This document shows positions 32,523-58,752 of a stretch of DNA of 64,000 nt, piece after piece. Both the position numbers and the translations under genes were made by a program. How positions within the stretch are numbered: the first letter of the stretch is position 1; each line of letters opens with the position of its first letter. Under the pieces are notes generated by a model. The model was given only the letters and a program-made list of their open reading frames with translations. It did not search any database and was not told the DNA's origin. Location: positions 110,511 through 174,510 of IMG/VR virus record IMGVR_UViG_3300013102_000002; one strand, given 5' to 3'. The DNA is from a virus.

Positions 32523-33188
32523 ATGAAAAAGAACAATAAGGCGTTAACGAACGAATCGGCCTATAGAGGATTCAAGGTAAGAGGTATTGCAAACAAGAAC
32601 GAACTTATAACAGCAATGAGAGCCATGATACCAAATGCATTAAAAGTTAATGACATCGTATTTGTTTGCATCGGAACAGACAGATCTACAGGAGACTCAT
32701 TGGGGCCATTGGTTGGAAGCTACTTAAAAGACATGGGATACGCAAATGTATATGGAACAATTGATAATCCAGTACACGCAGTTAATCTTGAAGAAACAAT
32801 GAAAAGTATACCGAAGAATAAGATTGTTATTGCAGTAGATGCCTCTCTTGGAGGGTCTGTGGATGTTGGAAATATATCGTTGATCAAAGGAAGTCTCAAG
32901 CCTGGAGCTGGTGTTGGGAAAGATTTGATAGAAGTAGGAGATTTCTCTCTATGTGGGGTTGTAAATGTAGGTGGATTTATGGAACATTTTGTTTTGCAAA
33001 ATACGAGGCTATCCTTGGTTATCAAGTTGGCGAAAGATATTGTTTCAGGTATAACCAATACATTTCCACTTAAAGAAGAGAGTAAGCGAAAGAGTAACGA
33101 GAAATTTGTAAGTAGGGCAGATGATATTAGAACGATTACCAAGCTAAAGAAAAAAGGATTAAATGTTGCATATCTTCAAAATACATAA
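32523..33188 (+). CDS. yyaC: YyaC-family sporulation protein homologue
   Basis: 221 aa. The core is close to host YyaC: 'VCIGTDRSTGDSLGPLVGS' (~47-66), 'TIDNPVHAVNLEE', 'VIAVDASLG' (~92-100), 'LKPGAGVGKDL' and 'GVVNVGGFMEHFVLQNTRLSLV' (~142-163). YyaC adopts a fold related to the germination protease Gpr and is expressed in sporulation; its substrate is not established. The extra ~35 basic residues at the C-terminus are not part of the family core. SD GGGAAG. Indicates a spore-forming host. Confidence 0.9.
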   Translation: MKKNNKALTNESAYRGFKVRGIANKNELITAMRAMIPNALKVNDIVFVCIGTDRSTGDSLGPLVGSYLKDMGYANVYGTIDNPVHAVNLEETMKSIPKNKIVIAVDASLGGSVDVGNISLIKGSLKPGAGVGKDLIEVGDFSLCGVVNVGGFMEHFVLQNTRLSLVIKLAKDIVSGITNTFPLKEESKRKSNEKFVSRADDIRTITKLKKKGLNVAYLQNT

Positions 33189-36684: not shown

Positions 36685-38332
36685 ATGAAATGGAAACAAA
36701 AAACACCTGTCATTCCATTTGAATCATATGACAATACGTATTCTAAACTTGCGAAACTTAACGGAATCACAAACATTGATCAATTCCTGAATCCACTGTC
36801 TAATGTAATTTGTGATTCTTATCTGCTTAAAAATATTGATGCATTAGCAAGTCGAATCATTCTTGCAATTCGGAATCGTGAGCCTATTACGATTACTGGC
36901 GACCCTGATTAGTTAGGATTATGACGGCGTAACTTCGTTGGTGACAATGTATAAGTATCTACTTAATTTCACTGACGAAGTATATTATGTGTGCAATGAA
37001 CGATCCGAAGGTCATTCGATTAATAACTTAGTCGAAACGATTCCAGGATCAACAAAAGTTCTGATTGCAGTAGACAGTTCATCAAACGATGTTGAGACCA
37101 TGCGACTACTATCATCAAGAGGAATTGACTGCTTAATCATTGACCATCATACAGTTACAGTAGATAACCCATATGCAATTTTAGTAAACCCGCAGCAAGC
37201 CAATGACCAATATCCAAACAAAAATGCTTGCGGCGGTTTACTCGTCTTCAAGGTTTGCCAAGTAATTGATGATTACATGAATACATATTATTCAAACAAG
37301 CTCGATGATCTTCCTGGATTTTCTCTAATGGCTGATATGATGTCAATGTTGGAATTAGAGAACAGATATTACGCAAAACAGTCACTGAAGAATTTACATC
37401 ACGCAGGACTCAAAGCATTGTTTCAAGCAATGAATTATGATCTAACAAACCTATCTGCGACAGACTTTCTATACGGGGTAAGCCCTGCTGTAACAGCTGC
37501 TACACGAGCAGATAATATCCAGTTAGCAATTGACTTTCTGATGTGTATAGATGACTCAGGCGACATCAAGGGGCTTGCTAAAGAGTTGGTTAAGGCCAAT
37601 GAGAAGCGTAAAGAAGTTCAGGCTGAGGCACTCAACGCATTGAAACCGTTTGTGGATGAGCGAGATAAAGTAGTAATTGTCTTCGATCCGACACTTGGGA
37701 AAGGGATGAATGGCCTCGTAGCGCAAGAATTGTCACGGACATTCAATAAACCAGCAATTGTTCTTGGAGAAGGTGACGACAAAGATACCTACGCAGGAAG
37801 TTATCGTGGATTAGAGGACTTTTCAATGCTTGAATTACTTAATGGTTGCGAGAGTGTAATTTACACAGGAGGACATCCGTCTGCTGGAGGGGTGCAACTA
37901 CCCAAGACCAACTTAGAATTGCTTAGACAAGAACTAAATAAAAAATTGTCTAATTTTGAAGCCGACGATTCGTTGTACTATGATCTAGAATTCAACTTGT
38001 CAGATGTCAATGAGAATCTAGTTAATTATCTGAATGAGTTTTACCGGATTACAGGCAACAAATTCAAGCAAGGCAAATTTCTCATCAAGGGATTATTCGT
38101 CTCAGATAAGAAGCTCATGGGTAAATCTGCTAATACAGTTAAGGTTGATTGCGATAAGATTCAATTGATGAAGTTTAAAACTGATGAGCAATACTTTAAC
38201 TCAGTCCCGGTATTCTCTGAAATTGAAGCCATCGGCTCACTCAACATCAACGTTTGGAAAGTTTATAAGCCCAAGTTTAAAGTCACTAAAACACTGCAAT
38301 TATTCATTGATGATTACCGGGAAAATATTTAA
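36685..38332 (+). CDS. recJ: RecJ-like DHH exonuclease, interrupted in motif I
   Basis: DHH-DHHA1 5'-3' ssDNA exonuclease family. First part (36685-36912, 75 aa) ends in 'TGDPD' then UAG; the rest is open from 36917 and begins 'DYDGVTSLVTMY'. Joined by skipping 10 nt they rebuild motif I 'GDPDYDGVTS' exactly. Other motifs are intact: 'LIAVDSSSND', 'LIIDHHTV' (DHH), and 'YTGGHPSAGG' (DHHA1). Neither +1 nor -1 frameshifting rejoins the frames because stops intervene. Either programmed bypassing, a broken gene or a sequence error. The total, ~545 aa, fits the family. Confidence 0.85.
36903..36922 (+). other. candidate translational bypass site
   Basis: GAT (36907-36909) is followed directly by TAG; an identical GAT (36917-36919) precedes the frame that continues. 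The stretch CCTGA-TTAG-TTAGG (36904-36917) can form a 5-bp stem with a 4-nt loop. The direct repeat GATTA/GATTA is spaced by 10 nt. Confidence 0.5.
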
Positions 38333-40154: not shown

Positions 40155-41240
40155 TTGAGTAGTTTGATTGTTGAAGTTTGTAGGGTTGATAGCATTGAGA
40201 AGCATCCGAACGCCGATAAACTATCCATCATTAGTGTAAAGGGTTGGAATTGTATCGTTGGCCTGGATCAATACAAAGAAGGAGATTTAGTTGTTTTCAT
40301 TCCACCAGATTCAATTATTCCTGAAGATTTGATTGAAAAGTATGAACTTACTTATCTCAAGAATGGTGGAAGAGTTGGCAGCACAAAGCTTCGTGGTTAC
40401 ATTTCACAGGGACTAATTCTTGCTCCACCACAAGGAAAGAAATATAAAGTTGGTGATGATGTAGCCAAAGAAATGAACATCAAGAAATGGGAGCCACCAA
40501 CACCGTCTTACCAACAAAATCAATCTGGTAAGAAGAGTACGCCCCGTAATATTAATCCTTATTTTGATAAATATAATGATTTGGAGAATATTAAAAACTT
40601 CAACAACGTATTCAAAGATGGTGACAAAGTTTATATCAGCGAAAAACTCCACGGAACAAGTTGGAGAGCTGGTAATCATCCGGTAGTTAACAAAGGCATA
40701 AAAAGAAAAATAGTTAATTTCTTTAAAAAACTGATTGGTAAATATGATGGATATGAATTCGTTTATGGAAGTCGAAATGTTCAATTGTCTTATACATCGA
40801 AGAAGGGATACTACGGTGATGATGTTTACGGAAATATTGCTAAGAAATACAACATGAAAAACATCATCCCAAAAGACTACGGAGTATATGGTGAAGTTAT
40901 TGGCAGAGGAATTCAGGATCTGGAGTATGGACTGGATGAGCATGATCTTTACATTTATGATATTAAACTAAATGGCAAGTATCTTCCTTATGAAGATATG
41001 AAAGCATTCTGTGATGAGCGTAATCTTAAAGTTGTTCCACTTTTATACATAGGTGAATGGAATTCAGAATTAATCAATACATATACGAACGGTAAATCGA
41101 TCTTGGCTCCAAAACAGATTCGTGAGGGTTGCGTAATTAAAGATTACAATGAGACGAATGATCAAAGGCTTGGCCGTAAAGTATTGAAAAGTATTTCGTT
41201 TGATTACTTGACACGAAAAAATGCTACGGAATTCCATTAA
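40155..41240 (+). CDS. RNA ligase, DraRnl (Rnl5)-like, with N-terminal OB domain
   Basis: 361 aa. N-terminal OB-type module 'HPNADKLSIISVKGWNCIVG' (~16-36), linker, then nucleotidyltransferase domain: motif I 'EKLHGTSW' with the AMP-accepting Lys (~164), 'FVYGSRN', 'YGVYGEVIG', 'EGCVIKDY' (motif IV) and 'RKVLKSIS' (motif V). This architecture is that of Deinococcus-type Rnl5 ligases that seal nicked RNA. Likely counters host tRNA- or RNA-cleaving defence. TTG start, SD AGGAG. Confidence 0.88.
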   Translation: MSSLIVEVCRVDSIEKHPNADKLSIISVKGWNCIVGLDQYKEGDLVVFIPPDSIIPEDLIEKYELTYLKNGGRVGSTKLRGYISQGLILAPPQGKKYKVGDDVAKEMNIKKWEPPTPSYQQNQSGKKSTPRNINPYFDKYNDLENIKNFNNVFKDGDKVYISEKLHGTSWRAGNHPVVNKGIKRKIVNFFKKLIGKYDGYEFVYGSRNVQLSYTSKKGYYGDDVYGNIAKKYNMKNIIPKDYGVYGEVIGRGIQDLEYGLDEHDLYIYDIKLNGKYLPYEDMKAFCDERNLKVVPLLYIGEWNSELINTYTNGKSILAPKQIREGCVIKDYNETNDQRLGRKVLKSISFDYLTRKNATEFH

Positions 41241-45907: not shown

Positions 45908-48900
45908 ATGACGCATACGCAAGTTACAAAGAGAGATGGAATCATTAGCGAATATGATCCAAATAAAATTACTGACGCAATTATTAAGGCAATGAGAATG
46001 ACTGAAGTAGGAATTGATAAAGAATTAGCAGAGAAAATAACTTTAAAAGTTACCCAACAAGTAATGAAGAGTAAAAATACATATTCCGTAGAGTTGCTAC
46101 AGGACTTGATAGAAAAAGACCTTATGATGAGTAGCAGAAAAGATGTTGCAAGAGAGTATATTACCTATCGGCAAAAAAGAACAGAAGAGCGCCTTAAACA
46201 AAGTGAACTATTTAAGATTGGCGAAGGCATTATTTCTGGAGAAAACGAAGAAGTAACCAAAGAAAATGCTAATTTAAATGGTGAATCCTATAGTGGAAAA
46301 ATGAATCGTTTTGGCTCTGAGTACAGTAAAATGTATGCAAGAAATGTGATGCTTCCAAAACGACTAGTTAAAGCGATGGACGAAGGATTTATTCATGTTC
46401 ACGACCTAGACCATTATGCTGTAGGAACACATAACTGCTTATTTATCCCGTTTGATAAACTCTTAGCAAATGGGTTCCAGGTTAGTGATAAAGGTTCTGT
46501 AAGAACTCCTAACTCAATCATGACTGCAATGGCTCAGGTGGCTATTATTTTTCAGTGTCAACAGAATAGTCAATTTGGTGGGTGTGGTGCTGCTAAATTT
46601 GATTGGGATTTGGCTCCTTATGTGACTAAATCATTCAAGAAACATTTTCGTAAAGGGCAAATGTATTTTGGTGAAACCTATGTCGAAGTAAGCGACGATA
46701 AACTATTTCTTGATAACTCCGCGTTATTGTCTGTACTCCCTAAGTCATACACGTATGCCAAAGAAGAAACAGAGCTAGAGACAAAGCAAGCAGCAGAAAG
46801 TATGATTCATAACTTGAATACAATGGCCTCAAGAGCAGGAGGTCAGGTTCCATTTACCTCAATTACCTTTGGACTATGTACTTCTACAGAGGGAAAAATG
46901 ATTTCTAACGCTATCCTAAATGCATCGATGAATGGATTGGGACACTCAGAAACAGCGATTTTCCCACAACTTATTTTCCAGTGTAAGCAAGGAGTAAACC
47001 AGAATCTTGGGGAACCGAATTACGATATTTTCATGAAGGCAATTGAATGCTCTAGTAAGCGTTTGTTTCCTAATTTCGTGAACGTCGATGCAGACTTCAA
47101 TCTCCAATATTACGATCCAAGTGATCCAGATACGGCAGTGGCAACCATGGGATGTGTTGATGGAGACGAGGTAGTTACCTACAAACTTAATGATATTCTC
47201 TATGTGGAATCATTTAAAAGAATGTACGATAATGTTGAAAGGATTGGTTTTAAAAGTAGATTCGGAATATCTGAGTACGTAGAATGTGAACGGCTAGAGA
47301 TATTTGATTCTTACAGTGGTGGGTTTGTAGTCGTTAAGAAAGTGATTAAAAATCCAGATCAAAATAACTGGGTTATCGTAAAACTTAATAATGGAAGAAG
47401 TATGCTTGCAACAAAGGATCATCCGCTACCAGTTGAGGGAAGAGGACGAATATTCGTAAAGGATATTAAAATTGGCGATAGTATTCCAGTGACATATGAT
47501 CAATACTCCGAAGAGTCTGAGGTCTACGAAAATGAAAAAGCATGGCTAGATGGAATGCTGCTATGTGACAGTTCATATAGTGGAGGATGCGTTAGAATTT
47601 CGCTTGGTATGGATGAAAAAGATGCTGCTGAAGCATCTCAAACTGCACTAAGAAGAGTATATGGAATAAAAAACAAAGTAGTATTTCAACAACGTGGAGT
47701 CAAGGGAATATATCTAGATATTGTTTCTTATGAGTCAGGGACAGAAAAGCTTAATGCGTTGGCTGATATGTTTGGTGGCTGGAATAAGATTAACAGAAAA
47801 GTTCCTGATTATATCTTCAGATCCAGCAGAGAAAATAAACTCTCGTTTTTGGCTGGAATGATTGATGCGGATGGGCATATCAAAAATATGCATGGTTCTG
47901 CAAGAGTAGAGATTGGCAGTACTAATAAAGAGCTTGCTTTGCAACAAGTAGCATTGGCCCAGGCAGTTGGCATTAAAGCTAAATTATATTTAAATAAATA
48001 CAATGGTAATGACAAAAGTAAGATCAGATATAAGGTTGAATTCTATAATACATATGAGTTAAACAAATATCTAAAGTGCAAGAAAAAAAGAGATGTTCTT
48101 GAAAACTGTAAAGCAAGTAATGTGATTGTTCATGAGTGTGCAAAGGTAACAGAAATTATAGAAATGGGTTTTATGAATAAACATAGTTATGATGTTGAAA
48201 CAGAATCAGATCGATTTGATGTCAGCGGAATATACAGTCACAATTGCAGAACCCGTGTAATCTCCAATCGATTTGGAAAAGGTTGTCAATCAGGTAGAGG
48301 GAATGTTTCATTTAATTCCATCAATTTAACCAAACTAGGTATTGAATATGGAGCAGTAAATGGACGCTCTGAAATTGACGTTGATGGATTCTGGAATAAA
48401 CTTGATGAGATTCTTGATATCACTCTAGATGGATTGCTTCATCGTTTTGATATTCAGGGCAACCAACCAGCAAAAGCAAGTGACTTTATGATGCAGAATG
48501 GTTCATGGACTGGTGGAGAAAAACTTCATCCCAATCAGAAAATTAAAGACTTGCTCAGAATGGGTTCAATTAGTATTGGATTTGTTGGACTAGCAGAGTG
48601 TCTAAAGGCTTTGTTCGGGAAACATCATGGTGAAGATCAAGACGTATGGTATTTTGGGCAGGAACTGATCCATTATATCAGAGAGTATTGTGACATGAAA
48701 TCAGATGAACACGATATGAATATCACATGCTTCGCGTCTCCCGCAGAATCACTTGCAGGTAAATTTGCCAGAATGAATAATAAGCAATATGGCGTTATTG
48801 AGGGAGTTACAGACAGAGAATATATCACTAATTCATTCCATATTCCTGTTTATTTTAATTTGCCAGCTCACAAGAAAATTGAATTAGAAGCACCTTTTCA

Positions 48901-49216
48901 TAAGATGACTAATGCGGGACATATCTCATATGTTGAACTTGATGGTAATGCACGAAACAATCTAGAGGCATTTAAAAATATTGTTCAATATGCTCTTAGT
49001 AAGAACATTGGATATTTCAGTATTAATCATCCAATTGATAAATGTATGACCTGTAATTTTGATGGTGTTATTAATAAAGAATGTCCTTCTTGTGGAGAAA
49101 CCGATGAAAACAATATTGCAAGAATCAGACGTATAACTGGGTATTTAGTCGGGACTCTTAACAGATTCAATGGTTCGAAGAAAGCAGAAGAACGAGACCG
49201 TGTTAAGCATTCATGA
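45908..49216 (+). CDS. nrdD: anaerobic (class III) ribonucleotide reductase with intein
   Basis: 1102 aa precursor: ATP-cone (~6-95), reductase domain, 364-aa intein (residues ~416-779), then the C-terminal half with CMTC/CPSC zinc site and glycyl-radical motif 'RITGYLVG'. After splicing ~738 aa, normal for NrdD. Reduces NTPs to dNTPs without oxygen after activation by NrdG. The ATG at 45908 touches its SD (TAGGAG); ACG 45917, nine bases away, may be the real start. ATGA overlap with nrdG. Confidence 0.93.
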   Translation: MTHTQVTKRDGIISEYDPNKITDAIIKAMRMTEVGIDKELAEKITLKVTQQVMKSKNTYSVELLQDLIEKDLMMSSRKDVAREYITYRQKRTEERLKQSELFKIGEGIISGENEEVTKENANLNGESYSGKMNRFGSEYSKMYARNVMLPKRLVKAMDEGFIHVHDLDHYAVGTHNCLFIPFDKLLANGFQVSDKGSVRTPNSIMTAMAQVAIIFQCQQNSQFGGCGAAKFDWDLAPYVTKSFKKHFRKGQMYFGETYVEVSDDKLFLDNSALLSVLPKSYTYAKEETELETKQAAESMIHNLNTMASRAGGQVPFTSITFGLCTSTEGKMISNAILNASMNGLGHSETAIFPQLIFQCKQGVNQNLGEPNYDIFMKAIECSSKRLFPNFVNVDADFNLQYYDPSDPDTAVATMGCVDGDEVVTYKLNDILYVESFKRMYDNVERIGFKSRFGISEYVECERLEIFDSYSGGFVVVKKVIKNPDQNNWVIVKLNNGRSMLATKDHPLPVEGRGRIFVKDIKIGDSIPVTYDQYSEESEVYENEKAWLDGMLLCDSSYSGGCVRISLGMDEKDAAEASQTALRRVYGIKNKVVFQQRGVKGIYLDIVSYESGTEKLNALADMFGGWNKINRKVPDYIFRSSRENKLSFLAGMIDADGHIKNMHGSARVEIGSTNKELALQQVALAQAVGIKAKLYLNKYNGNDKSKIRYKVEFYNTYELNKYLKCKKKRDVLENCKASNVIVHECAKVTEIIEMGFMNKHSYDVETESDRFDVSGIYSHNCRTRVISNRFGKGCQSGRGNVSFNSINLTKLGIEYGAVNGRSEIDVDGFWNKLDEILDITLDGLLHRFDIQGNQPAKASDFMMQNGSWTGGEKLHPNQKIKDLLRMGSISIGFVGLAECLKALFGKHHGEDQDVWYFGQELIHYIREYCDMKSDEHDMNITCFASPAESLAGKFARMNNKQYGVIEGVTDREYITNSFHIPVYFNLPAHKKIELEAPFHKMTNAGHISYVELDGNARNNLEAFKNIVQYALSKNIGYFSINHPIDKCMTCNFDGVINKECPSCGETDENNIARIRRITGYLVGTLNRFNGSKKAEERDRVKHS
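47153..48244 (+). other. LAGLIDADG intein within nrdD
   Basis: Begins with Cys1 ('CVDGDEVVTYK'), block B-like 'LATKDHPL', LAGLIDADG motifs ('WLDGMLLCDSSY' degenerate and 'FLAGMIDADGH' intact) and ends 'GIYSHN' followed by Cys+1 of the extein 'CRTRV'. All splice residues (C1, H, N, C+1) are present, so it should self-splice; the homing endonuclease has at least one good catalytic motif. Confidence 0.93.
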
Positions 49217-53339: not shown

Positions 53340-54203
53340 TTGAATAAACTAGATGAACAATACATTCAGCTTTGCAAAGACATTCTTGAAAATGGAGTAA
53401 GAAAAGAGGATAGAACTGGGACGGGAACACTTTCAGTGTTTGGACGGGAAATCAGAATTAATCTTCAGGAAGGATTCCCTTTGCTTACAACCAAGAAAAT
53501 TCATCTGAAATCAGTGATTCATGAACTGCTATGGTTTTTAAAGGGAGAAACCAATATAAAATACCTTAAAGATAATGGGGTTACAATATGGGATGCTTGG
53601 GCGGATAGACATGGAAACCTGGGTCCAGTGTATGGATCTCAGTGGGTTAATTGGGAATCAAAATATGAAGATACTGATTGGGGATATGATGGAGAGGATG
53701 AATATTCGTACTCCATAGTATCATCAGAATATACAAATCAGATTCAGGATGTTGTCAATTCAATCAAAAACAATCCAGATTCCCGTAGACACCTTGTTTC
53801 GGCTTGGAATGTTGGAGAAATTAAAAACATGAAATTACCGCCGTGTCACTATGCCTTTCAATTTTATGTAGCAAATAATAAACTATCTTGCAAATTTAAT
53901 ATGCGCAGCACAGATGTATTCTTGGGATTACCATTCAATATTGCAAGTTACGCGCTATTAACTATGATGATTGCTCAAGTATGTGATTTAGAGCTTGGGG
54001 ATTTAATTTATTCAGGTGGAGATGTACACATTTACACTAATCACCTCGATCAAGTCAACCTTCAATTAACAAGAGAACCAAAAGAACTGCCTAAGATGTT
54101 TATTAATTCAAATATTAAAGATATATTTTCATTTAGGTATGAAGATTTTATCATTGATGGCTATGATCCACATCCACCAATCAAGGGAACCGTTGCTATA
54201 TGA
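53340..54203 (+). CDS. thyA: thymidylate synthase
   Basis: 287 aa. Nucleophile Cys in '[12 protein letters not shown]' (~168); 'RRHLVSAWN', '[22 protein letters not shown]' (folate and dUMP sites, with the Asn that selects dUMP) and 'GDVHIYTNH' present, so it makes dTMP rather than a hydroxymethyl nucleotide. TTG 53340 is used because AGGGAGG is eight bases upstream; the longer frame reads the terminator. Overlaps folA by ATGA. Confidence 0.95.
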
Positions 54204-54706
54204 CCTACCCATTAACAATCATTGTAGCTATGGATAAAAATGGTCTTATTGGTTCTAATAACAAGCTTCCCTGGCACATTTCAGCAGACTTAAATTTCTT
54301 CAAATCAACGACTCAATACAATAATGTAGTTATGGGTAGATCAACGTTTGAATCAATTGGCAAACCACTTCCCAAACGAACAAATATCATCCTAACTTCA
54401 CAAAAAGATTACCCTGTTCCACCTGATGGATATGTTTATGATCATATAGATGATGTATTGGTTCATTCATTTGTCGATGAACTCAGATCGACCTACATTA
54501 TTGGCGGGTCATCAATTTATTCACAATTCCTTCCTCATGTTGAGAATATGATTATTACTCACATTGATGCAGAGTTTGAAGGAGATACTCATTTCCCTGA
54601 ATACGATAAATCAGAATGGGAATGTGTCCATGAAAGATATATTCCCAAAGGTCAAGATACTGATTACAACTTAACAACAACACGTTACCGAAGATTTAAT
54701 AAATAA
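54200..54706 (+). CDS. folA: dihydrofolate reductase
   Basis: 168 aa. '[29 protein letters not shown]' region, '[16 protein letters not shown]' and '[15 protein letters not shown]' are classic DHFR motifs. Regenerates tetrahydrofolate consumed by ThyA. Start overlaps thyA; stop falls in the AT element of the next promoter. Confidence 0.95.
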
Positions 54707-54738
54707 ATATATACAAACATAATTAAGTATGTTATGAT
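54694..54738 (+). promoter_or_regulatory. SigA-type promoter P7 with AT element
   Basis: TTTAATAAATAAATATA, TATACA (54710-54715), 17 bp, TATGAT (54733-54738). Expected start ~54745. Confidence 0.7.
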
Positions 54739-54740
54739 GA

Positions 54741-54776
54741 GTACAGGTTAAGAAACACGCCTGTACTTTATTTTAT
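54741..54776 (+). terminator. hairpin plus T-rich tract at the P7 start site
   Basis: GTACAGG (54741-54747) pairs with CCTGTAC (54760-54766), followed by TTTATTTTATTT. Terminates folA read-through; transcripts from P7 would begin inside the left arm. Confidence 0.6.
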
Positions 54777-54795
54777 TTCAAGGGAGACGATACAT

Positions 54796-55068
54796 ATTAA
54801 AAAGGAATCTAAAGAAAAACAAAAACTCAACTCAGATGTTCAAGCAATCCTATCGCTTTGTTGGGGAGAAAACGATGAACGCAGATGCACAAGTTTTATT
54901 GTCGATGGTAAGCATGAGTACACAACAAGAAACGGTTTGAGTTTTAAGCCCACAAACAATACATATGAAGAACTTGTACGTTATCAAGAAGATGAAAACA
55001 GCAGACCAATCAAACTTTATCGTAATGGAGATTATGTAAATATCACTGGAGGAGTGATTATTAAATGA
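54796..55068 (+). CDS. hypothetical protein, 90 aa, AUU start
   Basis: AGGGAG is nine bases before AUU 54796 (junction ATACATATT). No ATG, GTG or TTG occurs near the 5' end, yet the frame is open and codes a normal basic/polar protein (KKESKEKQKLNSD...). Unknown function. First gene of promoter P7. Confidence 0.6.
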   Translation: MKKESKEKQKLNSDVQAILSLCWGENDERRCTSFIVDGKHEYTTRNGLSFKPTNNTYEELVRYQEDENSRPIKLYRNGDYVNITGGVIIK

Positions 55069-55235
55069 TTAAATATTTGCGGAAAATCAAAACAAATGTC
55101 ATTATTCGTTTATTCTGGTCAAATTCATTCGATTCAATTAGAAGACATCATTACAAAATGGCTTATGATCAAGGTAAATTTGATGCTGTTATTACTCGTC
55201 ACTATGAACTCATGGAGGGAACGTATGAAAATTAA
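55065..55235 (+). CDS. small basic protein, 56 aa
   Basis: ATG overlaps the previous stop (ATGA). Begins MIKYLRKIKTNVIIRLFW, basic/hydrophobic. Overlaps next gene. Confidence 0.6.
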   Translation: MIKYLRKIKTNVIIRLFWSNSFDSIRRHHYKMAYDQGKFDAVITRHYELMEGTYEN

Positions 55236-55590
55236 TCAATATGTAATAGATAAATATATGGAGATTTGTCCTGTGAGTACAATGAAATGTGATACATATG
55301 AAGAGATTAAATACAAAATTAAACGCGCTGTCGATTTGGGCAAAGTAGTATATACATATCCTTGCAGAGTAATTCAGTATTATAACTTGAGATTCACAGT
55401 TGAGGTTGGAGATAAAGAAAACACGGTTATTGATATGGAAAAGAATGATGATTATTATCAAGTCGATGAATACCAGAAATTTGCACATGAATGTAAATAT
55501 TACAATGCGACTATTTGTGATTTTGACTATCAAGATGGAGAAGCATCAAAAGAAGAAATTTTGAATATCTTAGGAAAAAAATTCTTTTAA
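55225..55590 (+). CDS. hypothetical protein, 121 aa
   Basis: ATG 55225 after GGAGGG. 'YTYPCRVIQYYNLRFTVEVGDKENTVIDM' beta region and acidic C-terminus. Unknown. Confidence 0.65.
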   Translation: MKINQYVIDKYMEICPVSTMKCDTYEEIKYKIKRAVDLGKVVYTYPCRVIQYYNLRFTVEVGDKENTVIDMEKNDDYYQVDEYQKFAHECKYYNATICDFDYQDGEASKEEILNILGKKFF

Positions 55591-55608
55591 TAAAGGGAGA
55601 TAAAATAA

Positions 55609-56049
55609 ATGACACCAGAACGGATTAAACACTTTAAACGACTTCATATTCAAAAACACCACAATTGTGATTCATATCTTACCGTAGGAGACTTTAACTC
55701 ATTGCTGGCCGATCTAGAAGAGACACAACAACGACTAGCAGAAGAAAAGAGATGGCGTACAGCAGAACATGAAGTAGCTGCTGGATATCACCGTGAGCTG
55801 GTTGAGGCACAACAGACCATAGCCCAGAAACAACAGATGATTGATGCAGCATTATCTTGGACATGGAATTGCGGAGAAGCGAACATGCTTGAGGTTATCG
55901 CAGCGTTGAAAGGCAAAGAACAAATTGTACTCACATATTCAAACTGTCCTATATGTAATAGTAATAATACACTGGCACACCCAAATAAAGCGGGAATATG
56001 GCTATGTGTACCTTGTGATAAGGTATTTGAGGATGGTGAGACTACATGA
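55609..56049 (+). CDS. coiled-coil and zinc-ribbon protein, 146 aa
   Basis: Central coiled coil (ETQQRLAEEKRWRTAEHEV, ~42-75) and C-terminal zinc ribbon CPIC ... CVPC (~118-138). Locally higher GC than neighbours. Could bind nucleic acid; unknown. Overlaps next ATG. Confidence 0.7.
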   Translation: MTPERIKHFKRLHIQKHHNCDSYLTVGDFNSLLADLEETQQRLAEEKRWRTAEHEVAAGYHRELVEAQQTIAQKQQMIDAALSWTWNCGEANMLEVIAALKGKEQIVLTYSNCPICNSNNTLAHPNKAGIWLCVPCDKVFEDGETT

Positions 56050-56342
56050 CATATGTACAGACAATGACGGATCGTGATTTAAATGTAGAAATCGCAGAAT
56101 TATTAGATTATCCACAGAATAGATTTGTCCCAAACTATTGCGTTGATATTTTAGCATCTCAAGAGTTGCAAGCAAAAGCAATGGAAATAAATTATGCTGA
56201 CTATATTGAAAAACTTGCAGAAATTGTTAATCCATTTGAACTTTGGACTTATGAGGGTATAGCATCTCTTTTATTAGCTAAACCACGAGCAATAGCAGAA
56301 GCATCCTATACCATCTTGAAAGAAAAGCATAGAAAGGAATAA
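56046..56342 (+). CDS. hypothetical helical protein, 98 aa
   Basis: ATGA overlap with preceding gene. Starts 'MTYVQTMTDRDLNVEIAELLDYP', followed by helices rich in Ala. The start resembles the phage ABA-sandwich type (cf. 14548), but the match is weak. Confidence 0.6.
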   Translation: MTYVQTMTDRDLNVEIAELLDYPQNRFVPNYCVDILASQELQAKAMEINYADYIEKLAEIVNPFELWTYEGIASLLLAKPRAIAEASYTILKEKHRKE

Positions 56343-56439
56343 TTCTCCATAAAAAAACCCTTTAAAATCAACGTTATTTTAAGCAAAAAACTTCATGAAA
56401 GGCGAGTTTTATCAAAATATAAAAATGGGAGTGGCATAA

Positions 56440-56811
56440 ATGATTAACAAAGAAATTATTGAACTTTATCACAAACATCACAATGGAATTGAGAAATTTA
56501 TTGAAAGTATAATTTCTTTTTATGGAGATATTGATGGTAAGTACTATGAAATCTCCAGCGTCGATGCTGTTTACGGAGGACTCAACATCAAGGTAAGTCA
56601 TTACATAAATAGTTGGGGAGATGAATATTTTGAGAAATTCATTCCTCTGTCACTCCTTTGTGATCAAGATCAATATGATGATCTCCAAAGCAAAGCTGAA
56701 GAAAGTGTAATCAAAAGAAATCAATTGAAAAATGAAAAAGATAAGGAAGAACTTCAGAAAAAGCTAGATGAAGCAAAGGATTTTCTTGAAAAGCATAGCA
56801 ATATCATTTAA
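56440..56811 (+). CDS. hypothetical protein, 123 aa
   Basis: ATG after GGGAGTGG, behind a composite intergenic element. C-terminal charged coil (KDKEELQKKLDEAKDFLEK). Unknown. Confidence 0.65.
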   Translation: MINKEIIELYHKHHNGIEKFIESIISFYGDIDGKYYEISSVDAVYGGLNIKVSHYINSWGDEYFEKFIPLSLLCDQDQYDDLQSKAEESVIKRNQLKNEKDKEELQKKLDEAKDFLEKHSNII

Positions 56812-56854
56812 AATACCTGTTTTATCTGAAATTCAATCAAAAGGAGGATACAAA

Positions 56855-57178
56855 ATGAACGTCTATAAAATTAGCAAATATTATATTGCCGCAGAAAAAC
56901 CAGAGCAAGCATATTGTAAATGGGCTGATGAAAGCAGTGAATTGGATTTTTTGTTTGACTTGTCTAATATTGAAGAAGATGGGGAATGGACTGAAGAAAT
57001 TACAATTAAACGCCTCACTACCGAACAAATTAATTACAACGCAGTTCCATGTTGCGATGGAAATAGTGATTGTGATAAGTGCGACGAATTAGAAGATCAT
57101 ATTTACTCGACCTTCCAAGAAGTTATTGAGTCAAAAAGAGAAGATGAATTCCCGTGCATAATCGCAATTGAAGAATAG
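56855..57178 (+). CDS. hypothetical acidic protein with Cys cluster, 107 aa
   Basis: ATG 56855 after AAAAGGAGG. Cys cluster 'VPCCDGNSDCDKCDELE' in an acidic context. Unknown. Confidence 0.65.
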   Translation: MNVYKISKYYIAAEKPEQAYCKWADESSELDFLFDLSNIEEDGEWTEEITIKRLTTEQINYNAVPCCDGNSDCDKCDELEDHIYSTFQEVIESKREDEFPCIIAIEE

Positions 57179-57241
57179 GTTTATCTTAATAAAAAAATAA
57201 AAACTGGTTTATTGAAAAAATACATTCAAGGAGCTAAAGAA

Positions 57242-57397
57242 ATGATTATTGTATTGTTATTGATTCAAATTGTTTTACTAGTCATTTGTGTTATGGGGTT
57301 TATAGGAAAGTTAAAAAAGTATAAATATGAAAATGTTATTTCAATATCAGTGATTTGTTTAAGCCTTATCATAACGTTCTTTATCTTCATATCATAG
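57242..57397 (+). CDS. two-TM membrane peptide, 51 aa
   Basis: ATG 57242 eight bases after AAGGAG. Helices 'IIVLLLIQIVLLVICVMGF' and 'VISISVICLSLIITFFIFI' separated by a Lys/Tyr loop. Membrane protein; function unknown. Confidence 0.65.
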   Translation: MIIVLLLIQIVLLVICVMGFIGKLKKYKYENVISISVICLSLIITFFIFIS

Positions 57398-57429
57398 AAT
57401 TACTTAATTATCAGAAAGGAGAATACCAA

Positions 57430-57633
57430 ATGTTACTCAGCATAATATTCGGATGGCTAATCCCATGCTATCTATACATAGGAATGTTCACGCTGCTAAT
57501 CGGAATGATCATCGATGGTATTTCAGAATTTGGGTGGAAGCAAACAGCACAATTTATTCTTGCTTGGCCTGTGATTTGGTTCGTGGTTGTATTGCTTAAA
57601 CATGATATGTATAAAAATAAGAAGGGGAGATAA
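57430..57633 (+). CDS. two-TM membrane protein, 67 aa
   Basis: ATG 57430 after AAAGGAG. Hydrophobic segments at ~1-28 and ~40-57, basic C-terminus (KHDMYKNKKGR), so the tail is probably cytoplasmic. Confidence 0.65.
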   Translation: MLLSIIFGWLIPCYLYIGMFTLLIGMIIDGISEFGWKQTAQFILAWPVIWFVVVLLKHDMYKNKKGR

Positions 57634-57636
57634 TAA

Positions 57637-58752
57637 TTGAGTAAATATGAGTTAAGCTTATCTAAAGAATACGTTCCTGATTGGACAGTCGTTGATGCTG
57701 TTCGTGAATTATTCCAAAACGCTCTAGATCAGCAAACAACAACTGAAGATAACGCAATGTTCTTTAATTATGATGAACAGAATGAAACATTATACATAGG
57801 CAATAAGTCATCTGTGCTCGATGTAAAAACATTACTACTTGGTTCATCAACTAAACGCGATGATCCGAACACTATTGGTCAATTTGGTGAGGGCTATAAA
57901 ATTGCAACATTGGTACTAACCAGATTGAATAAGAAAGTTACGTTCTTTAATTATGGGGCAAAGGAGGTTTGGGAGCCTCGATTCGTAAAATCAAGACGAT
58001 ACAACGGAGAGGAAATACTAACTTTCTTCGTGGACAAGAAATATCCCTGGACTAAGATTCCAGATAACAATCTCACAATCACCATTGAAGGTATTAATCC
58101 TCATGACTACGAACAGATTGTAGAATCAAATCTACATCTTCAGGATGTTGGGAAAGTAATTGAGAGTACATACGGACGGATTCTTGAAGACGAACGATTC
58201 AAGACGAAAGTATTTGTCAATGGTTTATATGTGTGTAGCTATGGCGAGTATACGCAGGGATATGACTTTAAACCACAATACATCAAGATTGACCGCGATA
58301 GAAAACTTGCAGATTCATTTGAGTTGAAGTGGTTGTCGTCAAAAATGTTGGGTGGAGTTGAATCTGATAAGACGCTTGATTTAATCAAACAAGGATCTGC
58401 GGACACAGCCTTTATCCATCATAACTGGCAAAATACCAGCACTAGAAAATATGTATCAAATAAGGCACATGACGATTTTAAAAACGAGTATGGAGACAAT
58501 GCTATTCCGGTAATCAACCAAGAAGAATTTTCAAGGGTAAGTAGCACAGGCATTTATAATCCAGTATTCGTAAATGAGACCTATAGCAGCACAATCAAAT
58601 CCAGTGAGAATTATGAAATGCCTATTTATGAGACCAAAAGCAATCAATCAACTAAATCTAAACTGGAGCAATGGTTAAACAATCACAGACAGAATCTTAC
58701 TAAGCGTTCAATCAAGAAATTGCAATATATTATTGAAGAGGTTACAGACTAA
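57637..58752 (+). CDS. GHKL-type ATPase protein
   Basis: 371 aa. Bergerat ATP-binding fold: N-box 'VRELFQNALDQ' (~22-32), G1-like 'LYIGNKSSV' and G2 'GQFGEGYKIATLVL' (~82-95). No histidine-kinase H-box or MutL/gyrase signature was seen, so it is an orphan GHKL ATPase as found in some phages. Possible role as a molecular switch in DNA or host-protein remodelling. TTG start, SD GGGAG. Confidence 0.75.
   Translation: MSKYELSLSKEYVPDWTVVDAVRELFQNALDQQTTTEDNAMFFNYDEQNETLYIGNKSSVLDVKTLLLGSSTKRDDPNTIGQFGEGYKIATLVLTRLNKKVTFFNYGAKEVWEPRFVKSRRYNGEEILTFFVDKKYPWTKIPDNNLTITIEGINPHDYEQIVESNLHLQDVGKVIESTYGRILEDERFKTKVFVNGLYVCSYGEYTQGYDFKPQYIKIDRDRKLADSFELKWLSSKMLGGVESDKTLDLIKQGSADTAFIHHNWQNTSTRKYVSNKAHDDFKNEYGDNAIPVINQEEFSRVSSTGIYNPVFVNETYSSTIKSSENYEMPIYETKSNQSTKSKLEQWLNNHRQNLTKRSIKKLQYIIEEVTD

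Follow-up and report, generated by a model that had tools for sequence, protein, structure and literature searches.

The RecJ-like exonuclease genes of eight distinct Paenibacillus phage and prophage genomes, from metagenomes as well as isolates, carry an insert of 9 or 10 nt at the identical codon boundary inside catalytic motif I, and every insert begins with UAG. As all eight genomes keep both the insert and an intact enzyme sequence around it, the ribosome is likely to hop over the insert, and one RecJ-like DHH exonuclease would then be made via translational bypassing. This joining is inferred without protein, RNA or ribosome data, whereas the insert, its conservation and variation in length, the selection on both halves of the gene and the RecJ fold are shown.

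The interrupted recJ gene and its relatives

The window, by which we mean the whole 64,000-nt stretch analyzed here, is the last 64 kb of a virus record of 174,510 bases. Its recJ gene (36685-38332, plus strand, as are all its features below) is interrupted at motif I as GDP-D(GAT)-TAGTTAGGAT-YDG. The 5′ part (36685-36909) consists of 75 codons ending in TITGDPD, the first half of motif I, and forms an ORF of 36685-36912 with its stop codon. The junction reads GGC GAC CCT GAT (36907-36909), TAG (36910-36912), TTAG, GAT (36917-36919) and TAT GAC GGC GTA ACT TCG. The putative take-off codon (Asp75) is the first GAT, and the putative landing codon is the identical second GAT, which closes the 10-nt insert (36910-36919) after a 7-nt coding gap opening with UAG. 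The 3′ part (36920-38332; 470 codons plus TAA) starts with YDGVTS, the second half of motif I. Another TAG (36914-36916), read from the sequence, lies in the landing frame and abuts the landing codon on its 5′ side; thus, a simple +1 shift fails in the window, and the −1 frame runs into TAA. The initial annotation had described the split motif, the junction and the GAT pair 10 nt apart with UAG after the first GAT, all of which held exactly, and its statement that both simple frameshifts meet stops also held.

Comparison of homologous loci in related phages had been suggested as a check, and inspection of the junction in every relative fetched revealed the insert at the same codon boundary in seven other genomes, which is more than chance would produce. 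It is 10 nt long in five genomes and 9 nt in three. TAGTTAGGAT is shared by the window, L011 (the same as L003; locus L113 of isolate genome G187 seems to be identical) and L012 (L112 in isolate genome G116), while the remaining 10-nt forms are TAGTTAAGAT in L013 (the same as L005) and TAGTTCAGAT in L043 on the Paenibacillus spiritus MER_111 chromosome. The 9-nt forms are TAGCCAGGC in L007 (the same as L002) and L109 (isolate genome G263), and TAGCTAGAC in L014 (the same as L004). The take-off codon is GAT and is directly followed by UAG in all eight genomes. The last triplet of the insert is GAT in all 10-nt forms and GAC or GGC in the 9-nt forms, so that take-off and landing codons combine as GAT/GAT in five genomes, GAT/GAC in one and GAT/GGC in two. 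Each of these triplets can pair with the same tRNA-Asp (GUC); GGC, found in L007 and L109, is not a true Asp codon and pairs via one G·U. The common layout is therefore GAT, UAG, three or four variable bases, a triplet compatible with tRNA-Asp, and then TAT/TTT-GAY-GG.

Uninterrupted homologs with 55-78% identity (L008-L010, L015-L025, L041, L042, L106-L108 and others) have an unbroken frame across the motif. Similar DNA was not found among INPHARED phages, and phages and plasmids yielded only relatives at the protein level, none of which reached 60% identity (best 37%). Pattern scans of viral contigs for a stop codon before YDG recovered only these phages plus chance matches, and additional genome and viral scans yielded no more interrupted genomes. 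One further locus, L118, was flagged for an internal TAA, which is not at motif I, and was rejected.

A distant homolog, L115 (G136:C3:117760-119184, minus strand; 58% identity), has TCA GAT CCC TGA C TAC GAT GGC at motif I. A +1 shift on CCC-UGA would restore SDPDYDG, which could be an independent prfB-like recoding at the same site. This arrangement was seen in one genome only, and a one-base error is thus not excluded; if it is real, motif I of recJ has been recoded twice by different means.

Other interrupted genes were noticed in these phages. Among the split genes in seven phage genomes, recJ alone is split at one shared site in several of them. The anaerobic ribonucleotide reductase gene nrdD of the window (45908-49216, plus strand) contains a LAGLIDADG intein. 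A group I intron (RF00028) resides in a large gene outside the window (L046:13019-13287, minus strand; about 32819-33087 of the record), and this gene is in several pieces in the window phage and intact in relatives. Two genes in other phages, at 53365-58444 of G001 and 72568-74792 of G004, are interrupted by stretches of about 1009 nt and 236 nt, respectively; both are intact in relatives, and these splits are likely to be introns or insertions.

Selection on both halves and the RecJ fold

Both sides of the insert are under strong purifying selection, with dN/dS of about 0.02-0.17. In pairwise comparisons among the carriers where dS was computable, dN/dS was 0.02-0.10 over the 75 codons before the insert and 0.05-0.17 over the first 85 codons after it, and dS ranged from 0.3 up to saturation. 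The stretch from the insert to the first codon that could serve as a start, which is YDGVTS in most genomes and 46 codons long in L012, showed pS of 0.487 versus pN of 0.019 (pooled, non-independent pairs), and no ATG, GTG or TTG can initiate this stretch. The selection test for L012 itself is weaker because it has barely diverged from its nearest uninterrupted relatives. The insert also varies less than the 4-fold degenerate sites do in several distant pairs, with identity at, e.g., 10/10 positions between L011 and L012 (P = 1.6e-4) and between the window and L012 (P = 1e-3). Purifying selection on both halves is most simply explained if they are read as one translated protein. The gene thus fits the description of a gene-60-type arrangement, that is, one protein encoded by two ORFs with an untranslated gap and selected as one, in which translation is inferred from the sequence.

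The profile of PHROG 2484 (RecJ-like ssDNA exonuclease) covers both halves (model positions 1-73 and 75-557), and the second half contains the Pfam domains DHH, DHHA1 and RecJ_OB. The family profile also hits RecJ sequences of solved structure (8y30, E = 5e-54), in an alignment that pairs GDPDYDG with GDYDADG. The uninterrupted homolog L010 was modeled with AlphaFold (mean pLDDT 87), and the model superimposes on Staphylococcus aureus RecJ 8y30 with a TM-score of 0.87. With these domains, the DxDxDG motif I and the RecJ fold of the uninterrupted homolog, the features of a RecJ-like DHH exonuclease are all present. The junction (residues 75/76) falls in the loop between the strand 67-72 and the helix 76-89 of the L010 model, i.e., in the metal-binding motif I. 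Residues added or lost here would be expected to inactivate the enzyme. Only one DHH gene occurs in the window phage and in every interrupted virus record that was searched, which leaves no other copy to compensate for the interrupted recJ. These genes share fold and motifs with SPβ YorK, PHROG 2484 members and S. aureus RecJ 8y30, and sister phages have uninterrupted relatives; unlike in those, the coding sequence of motif I is interrupted in the present clade.

The proposed ribosome hop and its rivals

Inserts of 9 and 10 nt place the downstream frame differently, and no readthrough or fixed frameshift can therefore fit both. A hop to the final triplet works in 8/8 genomes at both lengths, and we therefore regard the layout as a stop hop. 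In the proposed mechanism, a ribosome carrying peptidyl-tRNA-Asp on GAT 36907 would meet UAG in the A site and its anticodon would release. The mRNA would then slide by 9-10 nt, skipping 6-7 nt, and the tRNA would re-pair at the Asp-compatible triplet just before TAT, where translation would resume to complete motif I as GDPDYDG.

Stimulatory signals of the T4 type were not evident around the site. The small potential stem CCTGA-TTAG-TTAGG (36904-36917), which had been predicted in the initial annotation, is present and folds, but it is neither better than shuffled sequences nor conserved and is not supported as a shared signal. Stems near the site were weak and differed between genomes, with z-scores near 0 and no advantage over shuffled sequence; a conserved RNA structure at the insert site was not supported, and Rfam gave no match there. 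A KKYK-like nascent peptide is absent at the T4 distance, where the corresponding stretch lies within SYLLKNI. The upstream peptide hardly differs between interrupted and uninterrupted genes, and a different peptide signal is not excluded. No Shine-Dalgarno-like element was evident 6 nt before the landing codon. As no clear T4-type stimulators were found, the hop may be of low efficiency, although the efficiency of joining, like the joining at translation itself, is only inferred.

The plainest rival is that the gene is a pseudogene or that the insert is a recent lesion or a sequencing error. The insert sequence could have arisen through slippage (GATTA-GTTAG-GATTA), and the initial annotation had accordingly offered a recent 10-bp slippage insertion between GATTA repeats as the plain alternative, leaving it undecided whether selection had been maintained or the lesion was very recent. 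This alternative failed because the carriers have diverged widely at synonymous sites, in some cases to saturation, while dN/dS stays under 0.2 on either side of the insert; selection has been maintained. Since the insert also appears in independent metagenome and isolate assemblies, lesion and error are all but excluded. Readthrough of UAG would preserve the frame in the three 9-nt genomes, and +1 frameshifting near UAG finds some support in the +1 frame that is open across the site in L043 and in the likely CCC-UGA-C site of L115. However, the 10-nt forms fall out of frame upon readthrough, TAG or TAA just before the landing triplet blocks the +1 frame in the other four of the five 10-nt genomes, and either event would lengthen the metal-binding motif by three residues. 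The landing frame is closed shortly upstream in 7/8 interrupted genomes and open further only in L043, and prfB-type frameshifting, which needs a continuous +1 frame, was not supported. A recoded or suppressed UAG was likewise not supported: UAG behaves as a normal stop, ending 15% of the conserved ORFs in the window phage and 20-23% in other interrupted phages, and ARAGORN found no suppressor tRNA in three phage genomes but only tRNA-Met and tRNA-Leu. Readthrough and +1 frameshifting are thus very unlikely.

Two further explanations are less remote but still unlikely. The insert might be removed from RNA or DNA by a micro-intron, an endonuclease and ligase, or programmed excision, leaving ribosomes to read a continuous frame. 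Such removal would tolerate both 9 and 10 nt, and the window phage has an RNA ligase-like protein (40155-41240, plus strand; PF09414), which carries an N-terminal OB-fold domain. However, no self-splicing intron of 9-10 nt is known, no homolog of the ligase ORF was found in the six other related phage genomes compared, and the GATTA repeats that would permit deletion by slippage are missing from the 9-nt forms. Alternatively, the halves might be made as two separate polypeptides that assemble, or RecJ might be deliberately switched off while a C-terminal protein is started independently; TTG, GTG or ATG indeed occurs soon after the insert in 7/8 genomes. Against this, YDGVTS lies upstream of any start and is under purifying selection as described above, L012 has no start for 46 codons, and motif I would be divided between two chains. 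The ribosome hop remains our preferred reading. The T4-gene-60-like bypass proposed in the initial annotation is accordingly supported by the conservation of the insert across eight genomes in two lengths, by the selection acting on each half and, in one lineage, by an adjacent homing endonuclease, while the bypass is inferred and not measured.

A homing endonuclease beside recJ and known bypass systems

In L012, a 906-nt insertion exactly at the start of recJ and directly upstream of it holds a LAGLIDADG homing endonuclease gene (L012:3127-4038; PF14528, E = 2.4e-5), which overlaps the recJ start and is absent from the sister phages. No other relatives of this endonuclease were found in the viral collection searched or in the fetched loci, and recJ showed no adjacent endonuclease gene in the window, L043, L013 or L109. 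In the protein tree, which did not include L109, six carriers form one supported clade and L012 is placed among the uninterrupted phages; L109, added later, groups with the window group. Sliding identity showed that L012 is 97-100% identical to L008/L009 over recJ nt 271-675 and mostly 76-86% identical over nt 1-270, where the part upstream of the insert is about equally close to the insert clade. Split trees place nt 1-270 of L012 beside the insert clade (96.3/98) and nt 271 to the end inside the uninterrupted group (99.6/99). L012 thus acquired the 5′ part of recJ, insert included, by recombination.

L012 therefore has both a LAGLIDADG gene adjoining recJ and a co-transferred 5′ part of recJ. 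The simplest account is that the two moved together into an L009-like phage. Mosaicism is also present in other parts of recJ (nt 676-900), which means that recombination on its own does not prove homing, and a cassette in which the endonuclease adjoins the insert and moves with it was seen in L012 only; it is possible, again by inference, that carriers without an adjacent endonuclease have lost the gene. In the proposed origin, the insert would most likely have spread as, or with, a homing-endonuclease cassette, destroying the endonuclease target in conserved active-site codons, and the ribosome hop would make it tolerable. Cutting at the insert site by the endonuclease is inferred.

For more than 35 years, T4 gene 60 has been almost alone as a proven bypass among bacteria and their phages. 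A 2016 review listed T4 gene 60, Magnusiomyces capitatus mitochondria and a candidate in Streptomyces phage Hau3 as bypass cases, and no natural in-frame stop hop was known (PMC5009743). We found no report of the recJ case in the literature searched, from which subscription papers were mostly absent, and together with the list in the review this leads us to take the interrupted recJ as a probable new variant of bypassing. The eight natural variants, with two insert lengths and three landing triplets, provide a ready mutational series for the determinants of ribosome hopping, and they serve as a warning that such genes are taken for broken ones by annotation pipelines.

Synthetic stop hops tested in reporters in E. 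coli likewise have matched codons flanking a stop, with 9 nt coding one amino acid (PMC5009743), but are laboratory constructs, whereas recJ has conserved natural forms of 9 and 10 nt. The byps of M. capitatus are also short inserts skipped by ribosomes and tolerate imperfectly matched landing codons; they differ in being mitochondrial, present at 81 sites and context-independent, whereas recJ represents one site in a bacterial virus with a stop codon in the A site. Another suspected short bypass in a phage gene involves a UUA codon, and its gene and sequence are unrelated to recJ.

T4 gene 60 differs from recJ in its 50-nt insert versus 9-10 nt here (6-7 nt before the landing codon), its Gly rather than Asp codon, and its unrelated gene and phage. 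It also relies on a nascent peptide, with KKYK about 25-30 aa from the P site (PMC5009743), and such a peptide, hairpin or Shine-Dalgarno signal was not evident in recJ. Nevertheless, both are phage DNA-metabolism genes with UAG directly after the take-off codon and a non-coding insert, and in both the take-off and landing codons are readable by the same tRNA (in recJ, GGC via G·U). A natural, conserved stop hop of 6-7 nt is likely to be a new and much smaller variant of gene-60-type bypassing, with the bypass itself inferred. The T4 mobE gene and the gene 60 bypass have been described as one mobile cassette (citations in PMC4592705 and PMC5009743); Bonocora 2011 is reportedly the paper on this cassette. 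A homing endonuclease gene upstream and evidence of its co-transfer with the insert are shared with T4 (PMC5009743), here in L012 only and with a LAGLIDADG gene. If the link is true, an immunity insert combined with ribosome bypass would be a more general route for selfish genes into essential codons. On balance, we lean towards the bolder reading that a conserved short stop hop spread with a homing endonuclease as an independent re-invention of the T4 mobE/gene 60 cassette, in which bypassing would need far less than the T4 signals.
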